IMG/VR virus record: IMGVR_UViG_3300030110_002312
Span: 1-40,876 of that record
Reading direction: 5' to 3' (one strand)
Length of the DNA: 40,876 nt
From: a virus
The position numbers and the translations under genes are program-made. Positions 7,272 to 24,630 of this stretch are shown piece by piece. A model generated the notes under the pieces. That model searched no databases. It saw nothing but the letters and a program-made list of their open reading frames with translations, and was not told where the DNA came from. Position 1 is the first letter of the stretch; each line of letters opens with the position of its first letter.

Positions 7272-7316
7272 ATTTTCCTTGTTTTCTGCGGTTTTTTAAG
7301 TTTATAAATTATTTAT

Positions 7317-7346
7317 TTGACATATAACATTGTTATAGGGTATAAC
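7317..7346 (+). promoter_or_regulatory. Rightward promoter of the 67-aa accessory gene
   Basis: A perfect TTGACA (7317-7322) and TATAAC (7341-7346) are separated by 18 bases. Two copies of the phage palindrome lie within it, one filling the spacer and one covering the -10. The layout is nearly identical to the promoter at 15873. Expected start of transcription is near 7353, ahead of a ribosome binding site at 7363. Confidence 0.75.
7323..7337. promoter_or_regulatory. Operator palindrome, site A1
   Basis: TATAACATTGTTATA, a perfect 15-bp palindrome with a single central base, occupies the spacer of the 7317 promoter. A bound protein here would block polymerase. Confidence 0.8.
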
Positions 7347-7355
7347 ATTGTTAAA
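7341..7355. promoter_or_regulatory. Operator palindrome, site A2
   Basis: TATAACATTGTTAAA differs from the perfect palindrome at one base. Its centre is 18 bp from that of A1 and it covers the -10 element and start point. Confidence 0.75.
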
Positions 7356-15871: not shown

Positions 15872-15872
15872 T

Positions 15873-15902
15873 TTGACATATAACAATGTTATACGATATA
15901 AC
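15873..15902 (+). promoter_or_regulatory. Rightward promoter of the 91-aa/87-aa operon
   Basis: TTGACA (15873-15878) and TATAAC (15897-15902) are 18 bases apart, with one palindrome in the spacer and another over the -10, as in the 7317 promoter. The expected start point, about 15909, coincides with the ATG at 15909, suggesting a leaderless message. Confidence 0.75.
15879..15893. promoter_or_regulatory. Operator palindrome, site B1
   Basis: TATAACAATGTTATA is a perfect palindrome in the promoter spacer. It differs from site A1 only at the central base. Confidence 0.8.
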
Positions 15903-15911
15903 AGTGTTATG
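15897..15911. promoter_or_regulatory. Operator palindrome, site B2
   Basis: TATAACAGTGTTATG matches 14 of 15 positions and has its centre 18 bp from B1. It covers the -10 and the first codon of the gene. Confidence 0.75.
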
Positions 15912-16969: not shown

Positions 16970-17771
16970 AGGCTTTGTATTCTTCTTCAGTTATTAGTTT
17001 TTCATCTAACATTCTTCTAACCATTGTTTGATCTATTGATGTGGACCTCATTCCTTTTTTAACCCAAGGAACCCATTGCAAATAATTATCTGCTTTTTTT
17101 GTAAGAATAAATTCTTCTTTATCAGGTATCATGTTGTATGTTTCCCAGTTTTTTCCATTTAACCATGTCGTTACCATGGGAACTCCTAATTTTTTTGACT
17201 GCTGGTGTTCTGAATAATGATTATATGTTGTAAGTATCTTAACCATTAAATCATTATCTTGTTTGTTTTTATAATAAAATTTTTCTGCTTTTCCTTTAAC
17301 TCCTTTATTTGGACCCACATAATTAAACGCTTTCCACCACTCCTCAAAAGCTTTATCACTTATATTATTATTTCTTTTATTATTACCTTTATTATGTTTG
17401 TTATCGGTTGGCGTATTGTTTGGCGTATCTTGATACTTGTCATAATGGCAGATTGTAAGGATGTCTGGTGTATCGTTTGGCGTATCGGTTGGCGTATCGG
17501 TTGAAATAGTCGAAAATTTTTTTAATTTATCTAAATAGCGTTGTACTCTTGATTTATCCCATCCCCATGCTTCTGCCATAAAAGTATGAGAACAGCATAA
17601 TTGACCACGTTTTAAATAAACTGTTTTATCTTTTATTCTATATTTACGGTCAACAAAACTAGCTTCCAATAATAACCATAAAAAAGCACCTTTCTCACAA
17701 AACTCTTGACCTCGTTTTTGTAATGCAGGATGATATAAAATACTGCGATCTATTTTAATATATCCACTCAT
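16962..17771 (-). CDS. Replication initiator-like protein with winged-helix N-terminus (269 aa)
   Basis: Residues 1-95 show the layout of phage replication O-type N-domains: GYIKIDRSILYHPALQ, a WLLLEASFVDRKYRI core, KRGQLCCSHTFMAEAWGWDK and SRVQRYLDKLKKF as the recognition helices. Next comes a Thr-Asp-Pro linker (residues about 95-125) made of DTPT/DTPN repeats. The C-domain (DKAFEEWWKAFNYVGPNKGV, VTTWLNGKNWETY) is the type that recruits host helicase loading in lambda-like phages. No helicase or polymerase is encoded, so it probably brings host replisome parts to the origin. The origin may be in or near the linker repeats, as in lambda O; inferred. Confidence 0.7.
   Translation of the reverse strand: MSGYIKIDRSILYHPALQKRGQEFCEKGAFLWLLLEASFVDRKYRIKDKTVYLKRGQLCCSHTFMAEAWGWDKSRVQRYLDKLKKFSTISTDTPTDTPNDTPDILTICHYDKYQDTPNNTPTDNKHNKGNNKRNNNISDKAFEEWWKAFNYVGPNKGVKGKAEKFYYKNKQDNDLMVKILTTYNHYSEHQQSKKLGVPMVTTWLNGKNWETYNMIPDKEEFILTKKADNYLQWVPWVKKGMRSTSIDQTMVRRMLDEKLITEEEYKAYV
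17405..17512. repeat. Degenerate GGCGTATCG/T repeats in the replication gene
   Basis: The sequence TTGGCGTATNGTT recurs at least five times across this stretch and codes for the DTP linker of the 269-residue protein. Iterated sites inside a phage O-type gene are the classic place for an origin, so this is the best origin candidate in the window. It could equally be a simple coding repeat. Confidence 0.5.
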
Positions 17772-18007
17772 AATATTTTTAAAGTTCTTGCTTTATACAT
17801 TTCTTTAGCAACCCATCCTCTCTCTTGTAAATTTAAAATATAACGTGCAACATTTGATTTTGTTGTACTAAAATGATTCATAATTTCATCATATGATGGT
17901 GCTTCATTTTTTTCTTTAATGTACATATCTATAAAATTAAAAACTTTTTGCATTTTTAAAGTTAAAGGAACTTTTTTTATTTCATGATTACAATGAGGAC
18001 ACTTCAT
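17768..18007 (-). CDS. LexA-like winged-helix regulator with zinc knuckle (79 aa)
   Basis: N-terminus has a CPHCNH zinc-knuckle start (residues 3-8). Residues 14-70 read LTLKMQKVFNFIDMYIKEKN, APSYDEIMNHFSTTKSNVAR, YILNLQERGWVAKE, the same order of helices as the LexA DNA-binding domain (LT..Q..V..FI..Y....G..PS..EI...F..S...V...L..L...G.I). No autoproteolytic domain follows. It is the first gene of the leftward control block and faces the early operon, with operator-like sites in front of it, so it is a second candidate for the regulator of the phage. Confidence 0.75.
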   Translation of the reverse strand: MKCPHCNHEIKKVPLTLKMQKVFNFIDMYIKEKNEAPSYDEIMNHFSTTKSNVARYILNLQERGWVAKEMYKARTLKIL

Positions 18008-18112: not shown

Positions 18113-18127
18113 AAAAACAATGTTATA
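18113..18127. promoter_or_regulatory. Operator-like site D1
   Basis: AAAAACAATGTTATA has a perfect TGTTATA half and a 5/7 left half. A further TATAACA half site lies at 18131-18137, giving a TGTTATA-TCA-TATAACA inverted pair. Confidence 0.6.
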
Positions 18128-18334: not shown

Positions 18335-18628
18335 ATGAAATCTAAATCCAGTAAAACTGTTATCACAAAAGATAATTTTTTACAAATTCAAGGATTAAGA
18401 ACAAGGTTAGATTTAATTTATAAAGAAGTAGATAAATTAATGAGATCTTTACCTAAGAGTAGTAATCTTAGATCTGCTCTTGGTACTATTCATGATGTTA
18501 GTTACGATCAGCTAGGTTTATTAGATGATATAATTAATGATAAATTATTACCTAAAGGCAATACATCTTTTTCAATTGAACATCAAAGTTATGGCGGAAC
18601 GGACCCTGATTGGGACTCTGATAATTAA
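18335..18628 (+). CDS. First early-operon protein (97 aa)
   Basis: Unrecognised. N-terminal basic segment (SKSSKTVITKDNFLQIQG), then amphipathic helix (LRTRLDLIYKEVDKLMRSLP) and an acidic, Asp/Gly-rich end (YGGTDPDWDSDN). GGA at about 18321 is the only ribosome-binding-like sequence before ATG 18335. The next gene starts right after its stop codon. First place in an early operon suggests a regulatory or host-directed role, but nothing in the sequence proves it. Confidence 0.7.
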   Translation: MKSKSSKTVITKDNFLQIQGLRTRLDLIYKEVDKLMRSLPKSSNLRSALGTIHDVSYDQLGLLDDIINDKLLPKGNTSFSIEHQSYGGTDPDWDSDN

Positions 18629-19564
18629 ATGGTAGCTTACTCTAATAAACGAAATTTACCTCAAACATATGTTAATGCTTGTATGAAAATTGCAAGCCAA
18701 TATGACAAAGGCAGATCTGATTATACAGCTTCCCAGTTAAGTAAGTCTGCAAGACAAGTAGTATTAGAACAAGAAAATAGTGATAAAATTATTATAGATG
18801 TTTCGGATTTAACATGGTCTGTGTTTGGTACGGTAGGTCATAGCATATTTGAAAATGCCACAACAACAGGAACTACTGAACAAAGAGTTTATTCTACTTA
18901 TGATGGTCCTTATGGTGGAACAGTATTAGGTGGCCAACTTGATTTAATACAACCAATTGACGGTGATCCTTTTCATGTTGATGTATGGGATTATAAGTTT
19001 GTAAATACCTGGGCAGTTATATTTGATACAAAAGATAAATGGACCGAACAACAAAATGTTTATAAAAATTTATTAGAACGTAATGGTTATAAAGTTAATT
19101 CACTTAATATTTTAGCTATATTTAAAAACTGGTCAGAAAAAGAAAAGCATAAAAAAAATTATCCTCCTCATGATGTAATGCCTTATAGACTCATAGAATG
19201 GGATAGAGAAAAAACTGAAAAATTTATATTAGAACGCCTTCAAAAATTGGAGGACGCTAAAACGAATTTACCTCTTTGTACTCCCGAAGAACAATGGCGT
19301 AGGGGTGAAACTTGGGCAGTAGTAACTGAACAAGGCGGACGTGCATTATCGGGAGGAGTTTGTTCATCGCGGGAAGATGCAATCTCAGTGGCACGTTCAA
19401 ATTACAGTAATGTCAAAAATGTAGGAGTAGAACATCGTCGTTCTATTGCTAAAAATTGTGAAAGTTATTGTAATGCTAGAGATTTTTGTTCTCAATTTAA
19501 GGAAGAACAAAAATTAGGCAAAAGTATATTTAAACCATTAACCAAAAAGGAAAAGGAGAAGTAA
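18629..19564 (+). CDS. PD-(D/E)XK nuclease, Cas4/AddB-like (311 aa)
   Basis: The nuclease core is visible: H71/E75 in GTVGHSIFEN, D105 in GGQLDLI, and D121-Y-K123 in DVWDYKFVNTW, followed by the QQNVYKNLLERNGYKV helix typical of Cas4/RecB-family nucleases. The C-terminal CESYCNARDFC (C277, C281, C287) with a Cys further upstream could hold an iron-sulphur cluster, as in Cas4 and AddB. A 5'-3' exonuclease for recombination or end processing is the likely job, working with the small protein that follows. The spacing of the cysteines is looser than in classical Cas4. Confidence 0.75.
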   Translation: MVAYSNKRNLPQTYVNACMKIASQYDKGRSDYTASQLSKSARQVVLEQENSDKIIIDVSDLTWSVFGTVGHSIFENATTTGTTEQRVYSTYDGPYGGTVLGGQLDLIQPIDGDPFHVDVWDYKFVNTWAVIFDTKDKWTEQQNVYKNLLERNGYKVNSLNILAIFKNWSEKEKHKKNYPPHDVMPYRLIEWDREKTEKFILERLQKLEDAKTNLPLCTPEEQWRRGETWAVVTEQGGRALSGGVCSSREDAISVARSNYSNVKNVGVEHRRSIAKNCESYCNARDFCSQFKEEQKLGKSIFKPLTKKEKEK

Positions 19565-19565
19565 A

Positions 19566-19841
19566 ATGGCTGATCCAATATATTCACTGGCTTACGATAG
19601 TCGTAAAGAAAGTGAAAAACAAGACCCAAATAGCAAGCCTATTTGGAAAAATTGCGGGGTAATATTTGAAAATACTAACTCTGACTCTGCTGTTAAATTA
19701 AATGTTGTAATGGATGGACATGTCCCCATTAAGGCATTTCCATATCAGAAAAAAGAACCAAAAGATTATGGGAATAATCCTCAAGGTGGCTACAACAACA
19801 ACCAAGGTGGTGGATACCGTGGTGGTTATAATAGAAGATGA
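19566..19841 (+). CDS. Small protein with Gly/Asn/Arg-rich tail, possible ssDNA-binding protein (91 aa)
   Basis: A compact N-terminal part (residues 1-62) is followed by a low-complexity tail (NNPQGGYNNNQGGGYRGGYN). Such RGG/GGY tails bind nucleic acid and are seen in single-strand-binding proteins. The core has beta-type pieces (WKNCGVIFENTNSDSAVKLN, MDGHVPIKAFPY) but is too short for a full OB fold. It has a good GGAG ribosome binding site and follows the exonuclease gene by one base, the partnership expected of a nuclease and an SSB or annealing protein. Confidence 0.6.
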   Translation: MADPIYSLAYDSRKESEKQDPNSKPIWKNCGVIFENTNSDSAVKLNVVMDGHVPIKAFPYQKKEPKDYGNNPQGGYNNNQGGGYRGGYNRR

Positions 19842-19917
19842 TTACCAGACACAGCATGTTTCCTCCTAAGAAAAATATTGTGTCTGAAGATGCTCTATAC
19901 ATAAAAGGTTGGAGTGT

Positions 19918-20157
19918 ATGATACCTGACGATCCAAATTTTAAAGAAGATTTTGGTAAGGTATTAAAGTCGTTAGATGGCTTGTTAAAAAAGAACAAGCA
20001 GGTTAACTCCGCTACGTTCAGTCTTGCATTGTCAACCTTTTTAACTCGTCATCTAATGATTACGTCGCCAAATGACTTTGTTATTATACAAACTTTAATG
20101 GCACCTTATTTAGAAACAAGAAGAAAACAAATTTTTGATGAAAAGAAAAAAACTTAA
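19918..20157 (+). CDS. Small early protein (79 aa)
   Basis: Start chosen at ATG 19918, 5 bases after GGAG. The helical protein (DPNFKEDFGKVLKSLDGLLK, NSATFSLALSTFLTRHLMI) has a pattern like small phage proteins that carry a LxLxxFLTRH...I..P segment. Family unknown to me. The 60 bases before it hold no gene. It continues the early operon. Confidence 0.65.
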   Translation: MIPDDPNFKEDFGKVLKSLDGLLKKNKQVNSATFSLALSTFLTRHLMITSPNDFVIIQTLMAPYLETRRKQIFDEKKKT

Positions 20158-20173
20158 ATATTTAAGGAGAATT

Positions 20174-20332
20174 ATGAATTATTTTTTAGATGCAATTATA
20201 GAAAAAATTAGTCCAAGTTTTATTAATAGAAAAAATAAATATAAATGGATAGGAGTACATTCAATGTCTAATCCTAATCCTAATCATAGAAAGATTACAA
20301 TTGTTAAAAAACAAAAACCTAAAAATAACTAA
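20174..20332 (+). CDS. Small basic early protein (52 aa)
   Basis: Begins MNYFLDAIIEKISPSFINRK after AAGGAG (20164-20169). Basic throughout and ending KKQKPKNN. An earlier in-frame ATG at 20135 would overlap the gene before and lacks a ribosome binding site. Function unknown. Confidence 0.55.
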   Translation: MNYFLDAIIEKISPSFINRKNKYKWIGVHSMSNPNPNHRKITIVKKQKPKNN

Positions 20333-20510
20333 AGTAGAAAAGAAAAAACATGGAGTTATTACATTGTATGATGAAACAAAAAAGCTGGCAAATGCAGAAA
20401 ATAAAATACCAGTTATTGCATTATGTCAAAAACATAGAAAAGGTTTTTGGATTGTTGCGCATGCAAGTGATCTGGAAAAAATAATTAATGCAAGAAATAA
20501 TAAGAAGTAA
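20301..20510 (+). CDS. Small early protein (69 aa)
   Basis: The only plausible start is TTG 20301, inside the preceding gene. After a Lys-rich lead the sequence looks like a folded protein: GVITLYDETKKLANAENKIP, VIALCQKHRKGFWIVAHASD, LEKIINA. Single Cys. It overlaps the HNH-like gene by 23 bases. Function unknown. Confidence 0.5.
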   Translation: MLKNKNLKITKVEKKKHGVITLYDETKKLANAENKIPVIALCQKHRKGFWIVAHASDLEKIINARNNKK

Positions 20511-20808
20511 ATCACATCAAAAACATGTAGCTTCCCAGCCGTGTTTTTATACAGGTGCAACCGAAGGTATTCAATGTTGCCACGTTAAATTTCTTGGTGA
20601 AAGATTTATGATGGGTAAGCGTGTGTCTGATATTTGGACAATACCCATGCATTATTTACTCCATGAACAACAACATCAACATAATGAATTGGAATGGCAT
20701 TTACAAAGACTAATGATTAGTCCTATTGCCAAAAAATATTGGGCCACATCACCTGATAAAAAAATTAGAGAGTTTTATGAACAAAGAAAAATTTACTTTA
20801 CCTCCTAG
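20488..20808 (+). CDS. HNH-like / DUF968-type recombination protein (106 aa)
   Basis: Core pattern: HVASQPCFYTGATEGIQCCH, then GKRVSDIWTIPMHYLLHEQQ and HQHNELEWH. This matches the layout of small phage proteins related to lambda Orf/NinG and DUF968, where C..C...E.HH, K.SD.W.VPLC..HH and a final H bind metal and form a beta-beta-alpha fold. Several Cys/His positions are altered (MHYLLHEQQHQH in place of LC..HH), but a full set of His remains. A role in processing DNA junctions during recombination is likely; nuclease activity is not certain. Confidence 0.65.
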   Translation: MQEIIRSKSHQKHVASQPCFYTGATEGIQCCHVKFLGERFMMGKRVSDIWTIPMHYLLHEQQHQHNELEWHLQRLMISPIAKKYWATSPDKKIREFYEQRKIYFTS

Positions 20809-21151
20809 ATTACCAGTAGATAGAGAAGGTTTAGCTTCTTTAATATTTGATGTTACTGCTTATGCTGGTCAATTAAAAGCAGAGGTGCATCATCAAGAAA
20901 AATTTTTAAAAAAGAAAGTAGCTTATCTTTGTAAAAAACATAAAGGAAATAAATCAGGTAAGGAAGCTGAATGGCATGCTTACGATGATCCTGAATATGA
21001 AAAATTTATTGATGACTTAAAAGAATTAGAGATAGAATTATACAGAGCCAATGCAATGACTCTAGCTGTTGAACATCATCAAAAAGATTTATCCCAGGAA
21101 AAAGCATTAGATCGTATTAAAATTGAAAAAGGTATTTATGATATTACCTAA
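20777..21151 (+). CDS. Early protein of unknown role (124 aa)
   Basis: ATG 20777 lies within the end of the HNH-like gene and starts MNKEKFTLPPRLPVDREGLA. The rest is strongly charged and helical, with two coiled segments (YAGQLKAEVHHQEKFLKKKV, FIDDLKELEIELYRANAMTL). It resembles small phage coiled-coil proteins with a LPVD..GL...I......A.L... start. No catalytic motif. It overlaps the methylase by 14 bases. Confidence 0.6.
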   Translation: MNKEKFTLPPRLPVDREGLASLIFDVTAYAGQLKAEVHHQEKFLKKKVAYLCKKHKGNKSGKEAEWHAYDDPEYEKFIDDLKELEIELYRANAMTLAVEHHQKDLSQEKALDRIKIEKGIYDIT

Positions 21152-21674
21152 TAAAAAATATAACATTATTTATTCTGATCCTGCTTGGAGATTTAAAACT
21201 TATTCTGATAAAGGAAAAAAGAAAAGTCCAGAAAATCATTATGATTGTATGGATATTAAAGATATTAAAAATTTACCTGTTAAAAATATAGCAGATGAAA
21301 ATTCTATATTATTTTTATGGGTTATTTATCCTTTATTAGAACAAGCATTAGAAGTTATTAAAGAATGGGGTTTTACGTATAAAACTTGTGCTTTTAGTTG
21401 GATTAAAAAAAACAAAAAGTCAGATAGTTTATTCTGGGGTTTGGGATATTGGACAAGAGCCAATAATGAAATTTGTTTACTGGCTACTAAAGGAAAACCA
21501 AAAAGAGTTTCTAAAGGAGTTCATCAAGTAGTTTATGAGCCAATTAGAGAACATTCACGAAAACCAGATTGTGTAAGAAATCGTATAGTAGAACTATGTG
21601 GAGATCTTCCACGAATTGAATTGTTTGCTAGGCAAAAAGTAGATGGCTGGGATGCTTGGGGAAATGAAGTATGA
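21138..21674 (+). CDS. MT-A70 family adenine-N6 DNA methyltransferase (178 aa)
   Basis: Start taken at ATG 21138 (MILPNKKYNIIYSDPAWRFK) since the earlier TTG 21123 adds nothing conserved. Motif IV is DPAW (D14-W17), the catalytic sequence of MT-A70-type enzymes, which usually read DPPW. Other family marks follow: NHYDCMDIKDIKNLPV, FLWVIYPLLEQALEVIKEWG, RANNEICLLATKG, REHSRKPDCVRNRIVELCGD and ELFARQKVDGWDAWGNEV. It uses S-adenosylmethionine to make N6-methyladenine in DNA, often to protect phage DNA from host restriction or to regulate genes. No cognate restriction enzyme is certain, though a nuclease-fold gene follows. Confidence 0.9.
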   Translation: MILPNKKYNIIYSDPAWRFKTYSDKGKKKSPENHYDCMDIKDIKNLPVKNIADENSILFLWVIYPLLEQALEVIKEWGFTYKTCAFSWIKKNKKSDSLFWGLGYWTRANNEICLLATKGKPKRVSKGVHQVVYEPIREHSRKPDCVRNRIVELCGDLPRIELFARQKVDGWDAWGNEV

Positions 21675-22168
21675 TATTACCTAATATAAATAAAACTGTT
21701 ACTCTTAATGATGTTGAAATACATGCTGGTAGTGAGTTAGCTTTTCGCCGTTTTCATGCCTGTGAAAGACATAATATATTAAATAGAAAAGTAGCATCAC
21801 GAAAGACCAATCAAGAAATCTCTGAGTTAGGTGTGTTATCAGAAATAGCTTTTTGCAAAATGATGAATATTTATCCAGACTTTACCTATCATGTACGAAA
21901 AGGTTCAGCAGATTGTGTTATTGATGGTGTTGCTATTGATATTAAAACAACAAATTTATCTAACGGTCAATTGCTTGTGACTCCTAAAAAAGAAATAGAC
22001 GGCGGTATAGATCTCTATGTTTTGATGACGGGTGATAGAAAAAATTTTACTTATAAAGGATGGAAGAAAAGTAAGGATGTTTACAATAAAAATAATTTAA
22101 AGGATCTTGGTTATGGTCCTACTTATGTAATTAAACAACAAGAATTAAGCACAACATGTCAGATATAA
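21671..22168 (+). CDS. PD-(D/E)XK-fold protein (165 aa)
   Basis: The nuclease signature is clear: E58 (LGVLSEIAF), D81 (GSADCVIDG) and D90-I-K92 (VAIDIKTT). The following NLSNGQLLVTPKKEIDGGID, LYVLMTGDR and GWKKSKDVYNKNNL match the layout of small phage endonucleases. The start overlaps the methylase stop as ATGA, so the two products are made together. The pair could be a modification-linked nuclease, a host-DNA degrading enzyme with self-protection, or a recombination nuclease. The target is unknown. Confidence 0.7.
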   Translation: MILPNINKTVTLNDVEIHAGSELAFRRFHACERHNILNRKVASRKTNQEISELGVLSEIAFCKMMNIYPDFTYHVRKGSADCVIDGVAIDIKTTNLSNGQLLVTPKKEIDGGIDLYVLMTGDRKNFTYKGWKKSKDVYNKNNLKDLGYGPTYVIKQQELSTTCQI

Positions 22169-22353
22169 AAATTTTAGAAAAAGATATTAGGGAATTAAAG
22201 AAAACTAACAAAGAACTTGTTACACATAATAAGTTTTTAGAGGAACGATTAGAAAATTGGGCCGATAAAAATTTTGATTTAAGACAAAAGAATCAAAAAT
22301 TAACAGAGGAAATTGAAGTATTAAAACCTAACTTTGTAAAAGAAAAAAAATAA
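22156..22353 (+). CDS. Coiled-coil protein (65 aa)
   Basis: The whole chain is a charged heptad-type coil (LEKDIRELKKTNKELVTHNK, NFDLRQKNQKLTEEIEVLKP). No other motif. It overlaps the nuclease-fold gene by 13 bases. It may act as a dimerising partner or inhibitor of a neighbour; that is a guess. Confidence 0.6.
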   Translation: MSDIKILEKDIRELKKTNKELVTHNKFLEERLENWADKNFDLRQKNQKLTEEIEVLKPNFVKEKK

Positions 22354-22358
22354 TACTT

Positions 22359-22520
22359 ATGAGTGCATCTAAAAAATTAATGTTAAAAAAAAATACAGCT
22401 AAAAATTTTATTAATAAATTACTTAAAGATGCTGTAATTAAATTAAAAAATAAAAAATTAGCAAAAGAAATATTGTTTCAAAATAAAAGAATAGAAAAAT
22501 TTTTAAAAGGATATAAATGA
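22359..22520 (+). CDS. Small Lys-rich early ORF (53 aa)
   Basis: Begins MSASKKLMLKKNTAKNFINK and stays basic and helical to its end. It starts 5 bases after the coiled-coil gene and its TGA stop overlaps the next ATG (ATGA), which supports it. Pattern and charge suggest a nucleic-acid-binding peptide. No ribosome binding site is evident, so coupling is assumed. Confidence 0.55.
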   Translation: MSASKKLMLKKNTAKNFINKLLKDAVIKLKNKKLAKEILFQNKRIEKFLKGYK

Positions 22521-22708
22521 GTAGCGTAAAAAAAAAATTAGCTATGAAAAAATACAGAGAAAAAAATTATATTTCTGTAACAAATCCACGAACACAAAAT
22601 AAAGAATTAAAAAAATGTACTTTATGTCCTACTACATATTTTTCTTATTCTAAGTTTGATAGGTTTTGTGATCCATGCAGAAAAAGAGCAAGTAGTATAT
22701 ATGTATAA
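22517..22708 (+). CDS. Small zinc-ribbon protein (63 aa)
   Basis: Basic N-terminus (MSSVKKKLAMKKYREKNY) and a CxxC...CxxC unit: CTLCPTTYFSYSKFDRFCDP then C, with cysteines at about residues 34, 37, 51 and 54. It resembles small treble-clef zinc proteins that bind DNA or proteins. An AAAAGG at about 22504 can serve as ribosome binding site. It overlaps the DnaA-like gene by 8 bases. Confidence 0.65.
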   Translation: MSSVKKKLAMKKYREKNYISVTNPRTQNKELKKCTLCPTTYFSYSKFDRFCDPCRKRASSIYV

Positions 22709-23096
22709 AAAATCAATTCCTTTTGTAAAAGTACAAGTATCATCAAGAGAATTAAATGTAGATAAAAAAGAATTTTTATCTCAGGATGAAATAAAAAGAG
22801 TTAAAGAATTACTAAAAATTGTTGGACCTACTTATTCTAATTCATTACAAAACATACAAGCAAATAGTTTAATGGCGTGGTGTTTAAAAGTTTGCACAAC
22901 GTATGAGGTAAGATTAGATGAGTTTAAATCTGAAAGAAGATATAAAAATTTAGTGCAAGCAAGAACTGATTTTTGTCATGCTGTTTATAAAAATACAGAT
23001 TATAATTATTCAGCAATTGCAAGGTTTATGAATAAAGATCATTCATCCGTTTTACATTATATAAAAAAATTAAAACCAAAATATTTTGTAGAATGA
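22701..23096 (+). CDS. DnaA domain IV-like DNA-binding protein (131 aa)
   Basis: ATG 22701 chosen; the longer TTG start has no family support. The last 55 residues read RRYKNLVQARTDFCHAVYKN, TDYNYSAIARFMNKDHSSVL, HYIKKL, matching the C-terminal DNA-binding domain of DnaA (R...LV.AR....Y..R......S...IG..F..RDHSTVLH...K), including the DHSSVLH signature. The AAA+ domain is absent. Residues 1-70 are unrelated (MYKKSIPFVKVQVSSRELNV). The protein could mark the phage origin for the host replisome or compete for host DnaA boxes. Confidence 0.8.
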   Translation: MYKKSIPFVKVQVSSRELNVDKKEFLSQDEIKRVKELLKIVGPTYSNSLQNIQANSLMAWCLKVCTTYEVRLDEFKSERRYKNLVQARTDFCHAVYKNTDYNYSAIARFMNKDHSSVLHYIKKLKPKYFVE

Positions 23097-23311
23097 ATGA
23101 TCCTGTTAATCATCCAGCACATTACACATCTGGTAAGAAAGAATTTCTGGATGTGGCTAAAGATATGTTGTCAGAGGAAGAATTTATCGGCGGAATTAAG
23201 TTTAATATCTTTAAATATATATTTCGGTCTGAATTTAAAAACGGCGTTGAGGATTTACTCAAAGCTGAGTTTTATCTAAAATACCTGATAAAACTTAAAA
23301 AGGGGGAGTAA
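23093..23311 (+). CDS. DUF3310 family protein (72 aa)
   Basis: Reads VNHPAHYTSGKKEFLDVAKD then GGIKFNIFKYIFRSEFKNGV and EDLLKAEFYLKYLIKL. The NHPxHYTSG start, KYIFR and KNG.EDL.KA..YL segments are the marks of DUF3310, common in phages and once called nucleotide-kinase-like. It sits last in the early operon, its ATG overlapping the previous stop, and is followed by a composite hairpin terminator. Confidence 0.88.
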   Translation: MNDPVNHPAHYTSGKKEFLDVAKDMLSEEEFIGGIKFNIFKYIFRSEFKNGVEDLLKAEFYLKYLIKLKKGE

Positions 23312-23357
23312 TCCCATAGATTTAAAAGCAGTCCTAATCTATTTGCTCCCCATTTTT
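23303..23357 (+). terminator. Composite hairpin terminator of the early operon
   Basis: Outer stem GGGGAG/CTCCCC (23303-23308 with 23346-23351) and inner stem ATAGATT/AATCTAT (23316-23322 with 23336-23342) nest together and are followed by ATTTTT. It begins within the end of the DUF3310 gene and would keep early transcripts from running into the integrase and attP. Confidence 0.65.
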
Positions 23358-23385: not shown

Positions 23386-23400
23386 TATAACATTGTTATA
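23386..23400. promoter_or_regulatory. Operator palindrome, site F
   Basis: TATAACATTGTTATA, identical to site A1, ends 5 bases before the -35 of the integrase promoter. Its centre is 12 bases from the -35. Confidence 0.8.
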
Positions 23401-23404
23401 GTTC

Positions 23405-23433
23405 TTGACCAAACCAGAACATTCATTTATTAA
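23405..23433 (+). promoter_or_regulatory. Integrase promoter
   Basis: TTGACC (23405-23410) and TATTAA (23428-23433), 17 bases apart. Transcription should start near 23440, at the very edge of the tRNA-like attP core. Confidence 0.65.
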
Positions 23434-23438
23434 GGTAA

Positions 23439-23488
23439 TGGTAGCGGAGGAGGGATTTGAACCCCCGACACAAGGATTATGATTCCTA
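23439..23488 (-). other. attP core: 3' half of a CAU-anticodon tRNA
   Basis: On the leftward strand this is the last ~50 bases of a tRNA: an anticodon loop with CAU (complement of 23479-23481, with the expected U33), a 5-base variable loop, a T-arm with TTCAAAT loop (complement of 23455-23461) and 5-bp stem, a 7-base acceptor strand CTCCGCT, discriminator A and encoded CCA. No matching 5' half (AGCGGAG) lies upstream, so it is not a complete tRNA gene. Together with the adjacent integrase it is the attachment site for integration into a host tRNA-Met-type gene. The exact crossover point is unknown. Confidence 0.85.
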
Positions 23489-23525
23489 TGTGAAAGGACC
23501 CTGGCTCTTTAAAAAAGGAGTTTAT

Positions 23526-24497
23526 ATGAAATATATAAAAGAATATATTAAAACAGATGGAACTAAAGTATTCCATGTGTCTATTCGTCAGCAAGGCGTG
23601 AAAATATGTCAAAAATTTTTAGACAAATCATTAGCTGAAATTTTTATACGTCATACGTTAACGGACATTGACCGTAAAAAGATTGATACTTATGAAGATA
23701 AAAAATGTTTTGTTGAGTTAGCTAACATGTATAAGAATGAACAGCTTCCTGAATTGAAACATGAAATGAATGAAATTCGTTTGATTGATAAACTGATTAG
23801 TGACTTTCGTTTATTGTTGAATACAACTGGTCCATTATATTTAACAGCAAAAGATATTTCTATGTATGTTAAAAGTAAAAAGAAAATTTTAAAACCAAGT
23901 TCTATTCACAAACGTGTTAATCGTATTAAACAAATCTATCAATATGCTGTTGAAATAGAACATATGAAGATAGTTAATCCTGCAATTGATACAAAGAAGC
24001 CAACTATACATGATGATAGTCGTGATCGTCGCCCGACGTTTAGTGAATTAAAATTAATTAATAAGCATGCATCATCTGAAATGTGGGCCAGTATTAAGAT
24101 AGCTATTCTTACTTGTATGCGCAAAGCAGAATGGGTGAATAGAAATTTTCGTTTTGAAAAAAATAAGAATGGGTACTTAATTATTTTAGATGACCATAAA
24201 ACAGTGAAGCATGTTGGTAAAAGAAAAATACCTATATCTAACAAAGCTTTTAACTTGTTAATGCGCAATGACTTACCTTCGTATGAAGCTTTAAAAAGTC
24301 AGTGGCAACGTCTAATGAAAAAATTAAATATTATAGATCTTCGTTTTAATGACATGCGCCATGAAGGTATTAGTCGGTTGTTTGAAAAAGGTTGGCAAAT
24401 TCCAGAGGTTGCTATGATTAGCGGTCATAAAGATTGGAAGATGTTAAAGCGTTATACTAATCTTCGTCCTGAGAATTTACTTTGGAAGCTAAATTAA
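23526..24497 (+). CDS. int: Tyrosine-recombinase integrase (323 aa)
   Basis: Start at ATG 23526, 5 bases after AAGGAG; an upstream in-frame TTG lies inside the tRNA sequence and is not credible. N-terminal arm-binding and SAM-like core domains (residues 1-165) precede the catalytic domain: R199 (ILTCMRKAEW), K225 (DDHKTVKHVG), box II at 275-278 reading N-D-M-R where most have H-D-L-R, H301 (ISGHKDW) and the nucleophile Y310 (LKRYTNL). It inserts and removes the phage at a tRNA. The His-to-Asn change is unusual but still offers a hydrogen-bonding side chain. No excisionase was recognised. Confidence 0.92.
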   Translation: MKYIKEYIKTDGTKVFHVSIRQQGVKICQKFLDKSLAEIFIRHTLTDIDRKKIDTYEDKKCFVELANMYKNEQLPELKHEMNEIRLIDKLISDFRLLLNTTGPLYLTAKDISMYVKSKKKILKPSSIHKRVNRIKQIYQYAVEIEHMKIVNPAIDTKKPTIHDDSRDRRPTFSELKLINKHASSEMWASIKIAILTCMRKAEWVNRNFRFEKNKNGYLIILDDHKTVKHVGKRKIPISNKAFNLLMRNDLPSYEALKSQWQRLMKKLNIIDLRFNDMRHEGISRLFEKGWQIPEVAMISGHKDWKMLKRYTNLRPENLLWKLN

Positions 24498-24618
24498 TTT
24501 CTTTACCGCAATCCATACATTCATAGACCTCGGTTTTAGAATAGTCCGCATTAGGATTATTCCAATCGGGGTCCATAATTATATGGGATATTTTTTTACT
24601 ACCACATTCACATTGCAT
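24457..24618 (-). CDS. Small zinc-ribbon protein (53 aa)
   Basis: Reads MQCECGSKKISHIIMDPDWN and continues to YECMDCGKEINLAS. Four cysteines (C3, C5, C34, C37) form a CxC...CxxC pair, a plausible zinc ribbon. It begins 7 bases after the stop of the 814-residue gene and ends 41 bases within the 3' end of the integrase gene on the opposite strand. The ORF was found by translating the gap between the two large genes; spacing and Cys pattern support it. Confidence 0.6.
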   Translation of the reverse strand: MQCECGSKKISHIIMDPDWNNPNADYSKTEVYECMDCGKEINLASKVNSQDED

Positions 24619-24630
24619 AACATCGTTATA
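24616..24630. promoter_or_regulatory. Degenerate operator-like site G
   Basis: CATAACATCGTTATA matches the phage palindrome at 13 of 15 positions. It covers the stop of the 814-residue gene and the start of the zinc-ribbon ORF. No promoter was seen beside it, so chance or a decayed site is possible. Confidence 0.35.

Follow-up and report, generated by a model that had tools for sequence, protein, structure and literature searches.

The elements ICEclc, ICEEc1 and ICEKp1 carry, at the end opposite the integrase gene (int), a promoter that is joined to int only when the element is circular; this promoter switching has been measured (PMC13023037). The promoter is named Pcirc in ICEclc and P3'end in ICEKp1 and ICEEc1; in the integrated elements, int is read from the tRNA promoter (PMC13023037). 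The intS modules of KplE1, HK620 and Sf6 form another group; in KplE1, int retains an autoregulated promoter within attL (PMC2951348). In the SSV-type suicidal integrases, attP lies inside int and integration splits the gene (PMC8371274). By analogy, the phage module described here appears to follow the circular-form promoter logic of the ICEs, with differences in int placement and in the operator.

The integration module

The window, that is, the whole stretch of DNA analyzed, comprises 40,876 bases with a GC content of 32%. It is a virus record of IMG/VR and carries a terminal direct repeat of approximately 99 bp. The window is a circular or complete phage genome. The phage is marine and temperate, and positions 23386–24497 belong to its integration module. 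The nearest described phages, as judged from the terminase large subunit, are of the Pelagibacter HTVC010P type (41–44% identity), and a comparison of described phages with the window at the nucleotide level yielded no relatives. An integrase is not annotated in HTVC010P, and a simple pattern search beside int of HTVC019P found no tRNA-like sequence. The features of the module and its surroundings are as follows.

18335–23311, rightward: early operon, with the DUF3310 gene last
23297–23357, no strand assigned: composite stem-loop, T runs present on both strands, from folding and the z score
23364–23374, no strand assigned: probable integrase arm-type site ATTTCACAAAT, 9 of 11 alignment columns invariant, putative function
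23386–23400, no strand assigned: perfect 15-bp operator palindrome TATAACATTGTTATA, 12 of 15 alignment columns invariant
23405–23433, + strand: int promoter-like element TTGACC-17-TATTAA, fixed spacing in relatives
23417–23423, + strand: GAACATT in the promoter spacer, 7 of 7 positions invariant, possibly an operator half-site
23439–23487, − strand: attP core, the 3' half of tRNA-Met(CAT) with the CCA end at 23439, from identity to host tRNA
23477–23483, no strand assigned: putative 7-bp crossover TTATGAT (anticodon loop) with flanks AGGA and TCCT; tRNA identity stops at this stem
23526–24497, + strand: int, tyrosine integrase of 323 aa (PF00589, E 2e-11; phrog_1, E 6e-30; alignment)
24616–24630, no strand assigned: operator-like site past int, 2 mismatches over 15 bp, with a counterpart at the corresponding position in contigs L005, L006 and L012

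Eleven other IMG/VR contigs encode integrases that are 69–96% identical to that of the window. Three of them have a tRNA-Met core and eight a tRNA-Phe(GAA) core. A pattern search of viral contigs with the promoter and operator matched only these 11. The initial annotation had placed a promoter at 23405–23433, followed by the core and by int from 23526. These coordinates hold, and the order of operator, promoter, core and int is kept in all 11 relatives.

Residues R199, R278, H301 and Y310 are invariant in the alignment of Int. They are catalytic residues of the integrase family, in which box II normally opens with a histidine. Position 275 is an asparagine in most members, and the integrase of L012 keeps a histidine there. 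A TTG start at 23457, inside the core, was dropped, as the ribosome site and the ATG at 23526 are conserved in all relatives.

The composite stem-loop folds with −19.6 kcal/mol on the + strand (z −3.45) and −17.2 kcal/mol on the − strand (z −1.39). An equivalent stem with different bases is found at this position in L005 and L012. The + strand side is probably the terminator of the early operon. The minus-strand side may terminate the transcript of the rebuilt tRNA in the prophage in place of the displaced terminator, since integration displaces the tRNA's own terminator, as shown for ICEKp1. A terminator had been noted here before and explained by an antisense promoter; the stem-loop itself is borne out by its z score, but its purpose is probably to serve the early operon.

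In L004, an 800-bp insert containing a minus-strand gene and its own operator separates the terminator from the int module, and the terminator stands between the early operon and the convergent inserted gene. Thus, the early operon cannot supply the transcription of int in L004, and the module is self-contained. This arrangement suggests that the stretch beginning at about 23354 and including all of int behaves as one unit, independent of read-through from the early operon. The inserted gene of L004 (8985–9743, − strand) encodes 252 aa and would adjoin the rebuilt tRNA in a prophage.

The attP core and its tRNA target

The core is intergenic, upstream of int, with 38 bp between its end and the conserved ATG. 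It matches alphaproteobacterial tRNA-Met(CAT) over 52 nt at 98% identity (23439–23490), with an unbroken match of 49 bp (23439–23487); identity to the host tRNA genes runs to 23487 and the first mismatch follows. The crossover probably lies in the anticodon loop, since tRNA identity ends in the anticodon stem and TTATGAT is flanked by AGGA and TCCT. ARAGORN detected no complete tRNA in the window, as expected for a core that is an attP fragment.

A 45-mer within the core is present as an exact copy in at least 118 genome contigs, which, among the matches listed, are alphaproteobacterial or unresolved proteobacterial. Besides these many alphaproteobacterial contigs, the tRNA-Met core is found in 2 of 162 genomes of one order. 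A host search with the tRNA-Phe core gave a single match, with one mismatch, in 385 alphaproteobacterial genomes and no exact match in the 162. Where the tRNA-Met core occurs in other IMG/VR contigs, the stretch examined contains no relative of the window int. Two unrelated GC-rich viral contigs, L205 and L209, carry the same tRNA-Met 3' half and no complete tRNA, which suggests that the tRNA-Met site may be used by other integrases too.

A promoter-like element in the P arm

A conserved promoter-like sequence with predicted activity is separated from int by attP. Its −35 hexamer TTGACC (23405–23410) and −10 hexamer TATTAA (23428–23433) are separated by a 17-bp spacer. Since 33% of shuffled sequences equal its 9 of 12 matches, the match alone is no evidence, and a strict promoter scan of the window does not list the pair. 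The element is accepted on account of its conservation among relatives. The gap between operator and −35 is 5 and the spacer 17 in 11 of 11 aligned sequences. Invariant columns amount to 12 of 15 in the operator, 7 of 7 in GAACATT and 4 of 6 in the −35, together with the first two bases of the −10. Third positions of int are 53–60% identical between lineages, compared with 80–93% for the operator, 100% for GAACATT and 0–75% for the adjoining linkers.

The P-arm block could instead be recombination DNA alone, composed of sites for Int, Xis or host factors, with the promoter a chance match in AT-rich sequence. The shuffling result is consistent with this explanation, as is the conservation of GAACATT, which exceeds that of both hexamers. 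However, int would then be left without any other visible promoter, every lineage has a TTGMC hexamer at constant distance from the operator and a −10 starting with TA, and the −35 of the tRNA-Phe phages is a perfect TTGACA. We therefore regard this explanation as improbable. Nearby, the probable arm-type site ATTTCACAAAT resembles the TGTCACAA direct repeats that flank the att sites of integrated relatives.

A promoter located inside the core, or downstream of it, would stay with int after integration and could be autoregulated by Int, as in KplE1. Prophages linked to tRNA genes often have such promoters (PMC2951348). The tRNA-Met core itself contains a weak TTGAAC-15-TATGAT pair, which would remain with int, and both the tRNA-Phe phages and integrated relatives have CACAA-type arm-like motifs adjoining the ribosome site of int. 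However, the 15-bp spacer is poor and the motif is missing from the tRNA-Phe core. Downstream, the 38 nt between core and int (23488–23525) contain no promoter-like pair, nor do the 38–67 nt that follow the core in the phages compared. Only a small probability can be given to a retained promoter of this kind.

The operator and its regulon

As stated in the initial annotation, a perfect operator (23386–23400) lies directly upstream of the promoter-like pair. Sites of the form TATAACANTGTTATA with at most two mismatches occur 12 times in the window, compared with 0.95 expected from shuffling. These operator-like TATAACANTGTTATA palindromes are spread over 6622–32908 as a phage-wide regulon. At 7316–7355 and 15872–15911, where small genes follow, the operator occupies the interval between TTGACA and TATAAC and overlaps them, in what appears from the sequence to be a repression layout. 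The small gene after the 15872–15911 operator is apparently leaderless.

At int, 18335 and 28102, the operator is upstream of the −35. Repression at int would fit the invariant spacer sequence GAACATT, which looks like half of an operator; activation is also possible. The operator was earlier thought to be present in order to keep the promoter off the rebuilt tRNA. That purpose is now weaker: the operator is one of about 12 regulon sites, some of them across other promoters, so shielding of the tRNA need not be its reason.

A candidate regulator of the operator family is encoded at 17768–18007 (− strand). This 79-aa protein has a CxxC motif and a LexA-like winged helix-turn-helix, and imperfect operators at 18113 and 18159 adjoin its gene. 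Convergent with the 3' end of int is a short reading frame with paired cysteines (24498–24630, − strand). The operator-like site at 24616 coincides with the start of this frame and is also present in L005, L006 and L012.

Geometry of integrated relatives

Junctions were sought in genomes. None was found for the window phage or its near relatives, and attL and attR were seen in more distant relatives, namely elements in small alphaproteobacterial genomes with integrases 35–43% identical to that of the window. A search of genome contigs with an int profile returned only distant integrases, and so did searches for prophages of the same clade in 385 alphaproteobacterial genomes, in 162 genomes of one order and in 347 of another.

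In seven integrated relatives (G157, G168, G449, G460, G471, G564 and G668), int is immediately preceded by a displaced tRNA 3' fragment, with host or other DNA in front of that fragment. The intact tRNA was found at the opposite end in six of them, all but G564. The element of G157, about 12.7 kb, occupies the same tRNA-Met as the window phage. Its P arm contains TGGACA-17-TATACT, which faces the tRNA in antisense from 91 bp away; 2.3% of shuffles score equally well.

By the same geometry, one end of the integrated window phage would consist of downstream host DNA, the core and int, and the other of the operator and promoter, the core and the tRNA 5' half, where the promoter would run in antisense into the rebuilt tRNA. 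The core orientation places the rebuilt tRNA opposite int and transcribed away from it, an arrangement confirmed in the relatives. That integration would part int from its P-arm promoter is thus well supported by sequence comparison, and the end states of the integrated relatives make this loss the normal outcome in the integrase group. Two earlier proposals agree with these structures: the separation of int from its promoter is seen in integrated relatives, including G157 at the same tRNA-Met, and the antisense position of the promoter follows from the same geometry, the promoter-like sequence of G157 itself showing this facing.

Several small elements at tRNA-Gly(GCC) in small alphaproteobacterial genomes (L178, L179, L180 and L184; loci G449, G460 and G471) have related integrases. 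Those of L178–L180 are roughly 5–6 kb. The tRNA-Gly(GCC) elements carry TGTCACAA repeats on each side of att, and G449 and G460 have extra tandem displaced tRNA fragments.

The surroundings of the displaced fragment bear on whether int acquires another promoter. The nearest ORF upstream of the fragment reads towards int in 10 of 14 integrated relatives, and in four of them (L199–L202) no more than 10 bp separate its end from the core. In the prophage, int might thus exchange promoters: a host transcription unit running into the tRNA 3' end would have int as its final gene and express it by read-through across the displaced fragment. ICEKp1, ICEclc and ICEEc1 likewise switch to a host promoter once integrated. 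On the other hand, the tRNA-Met loci with an exact core differ in context, G392 having an apparently divergent gene as read from its sequence, and some of the upstream ORFs may be parts of other integrated elements. Promoter exchange is a possible explanation, but not one that we consider probable.

Expression of int after integration

On balance, we favor a course of events in which a P-arm promoter drives int in the circular form and is removed by integration, which lowers Int and favors the integrated state. The order and spacing are the same in 11 relatives despite two tRNA targets, which argues for this proposal; the weak promoter match, with its poor −10, argues against it.

In the circular form, the operator-controlled promoter would drive int through the core identical to tRNA-Met, with a predicted transcription start at about 23440. 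Recombination by Int between attP and the host tRNA-Met gene would take place in the anticodon loop. On the promoter side, the 3' half of the tRNA would then be restored by the phage core, and int would end up behind the displaced fragment and host DNA; this step is seen in integrated relatives and predicted for the window phage. Loss of the only recognizable phage promoter of int would reduce Int and favor integration over excision. In the lysogen, the antisense promoter would probably be held down by a phage regulator at 23386–23400. Upon induction, repression would be lifted and the early genes expressed, and the Int needed at this stage might come from residual protein, host read-through or the weak core promoter.

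Expression of int is therefore likely to be lowered in the prophage, while complete silence is unproven; it would be a dead end, since excision needs Int. The earlier claim that int is shut off in the prophage stands as far as the parting from the promoter is concerned, but the off-state is a deduction, set against the 10 of 14 relatives with an ORF towards int. The proposal predicts antisense transcription at the host tRNA in lysogens, which is testable, and, for marine bacteria with small genomes, bears on the means by which a prophage can excise when int has no phage promoter.

For the clade as a whole, integration might act as the integrase off-switch, with the severed promoter kept as a repressed antisense element against an essential tRNA, tying the tRNA to the repressor. 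If so, loss of repression would at once induce the phage and attack the host tRNA. We consider this extension unlikely.

Comparison with known systems

The combination of an ICE-like switch, int on the displaced side and a phage operator was not described in the literature searched, although absence there is not proof. If the favored proposal is true, the module would be a phage counterpart of the ICE circular-form integrase promoters, with another solution to the expression of integrated int.

As in ICEclc, ICEKp1 and ICEEc1, the promoter is joined upstream of attP in the circle and would be parted from int by integration. The module differs from these ICEs in two respects. First, int of the ICEs lies beside the intact tRNA in the same orientation, whereas the phage int would lie on the displaced-fragment side with the tRNA transcribed away; the tRNA promoter therefore cannot rescue it. 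Second, the element is a phage whose int promoter is accompanied by a repressor-type operator.

The phage shares with the KplE1 module the transcription of int away from att and its uncoupling from the early genes. KplE1 retains its int promoter after integration, whereas no such promoter is evident in the phage. As with the SSV-type integrases, integration would impair the integrase gene, but the phage int would lose only its promoter and not be split.

Mycobacteriophage BPs is said to have integration-dependent immunity, with attP inside the repressor gene and a repressor product that is changed by integration. The phage resembles BPs in that, owing to where attP lies, integration itself would rewire how a lysogeny gene is expressed. 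However, attP of BPs lies in the repressor gene, whereas that of the phage lies in the int leader, where no coding sequence would be cut.
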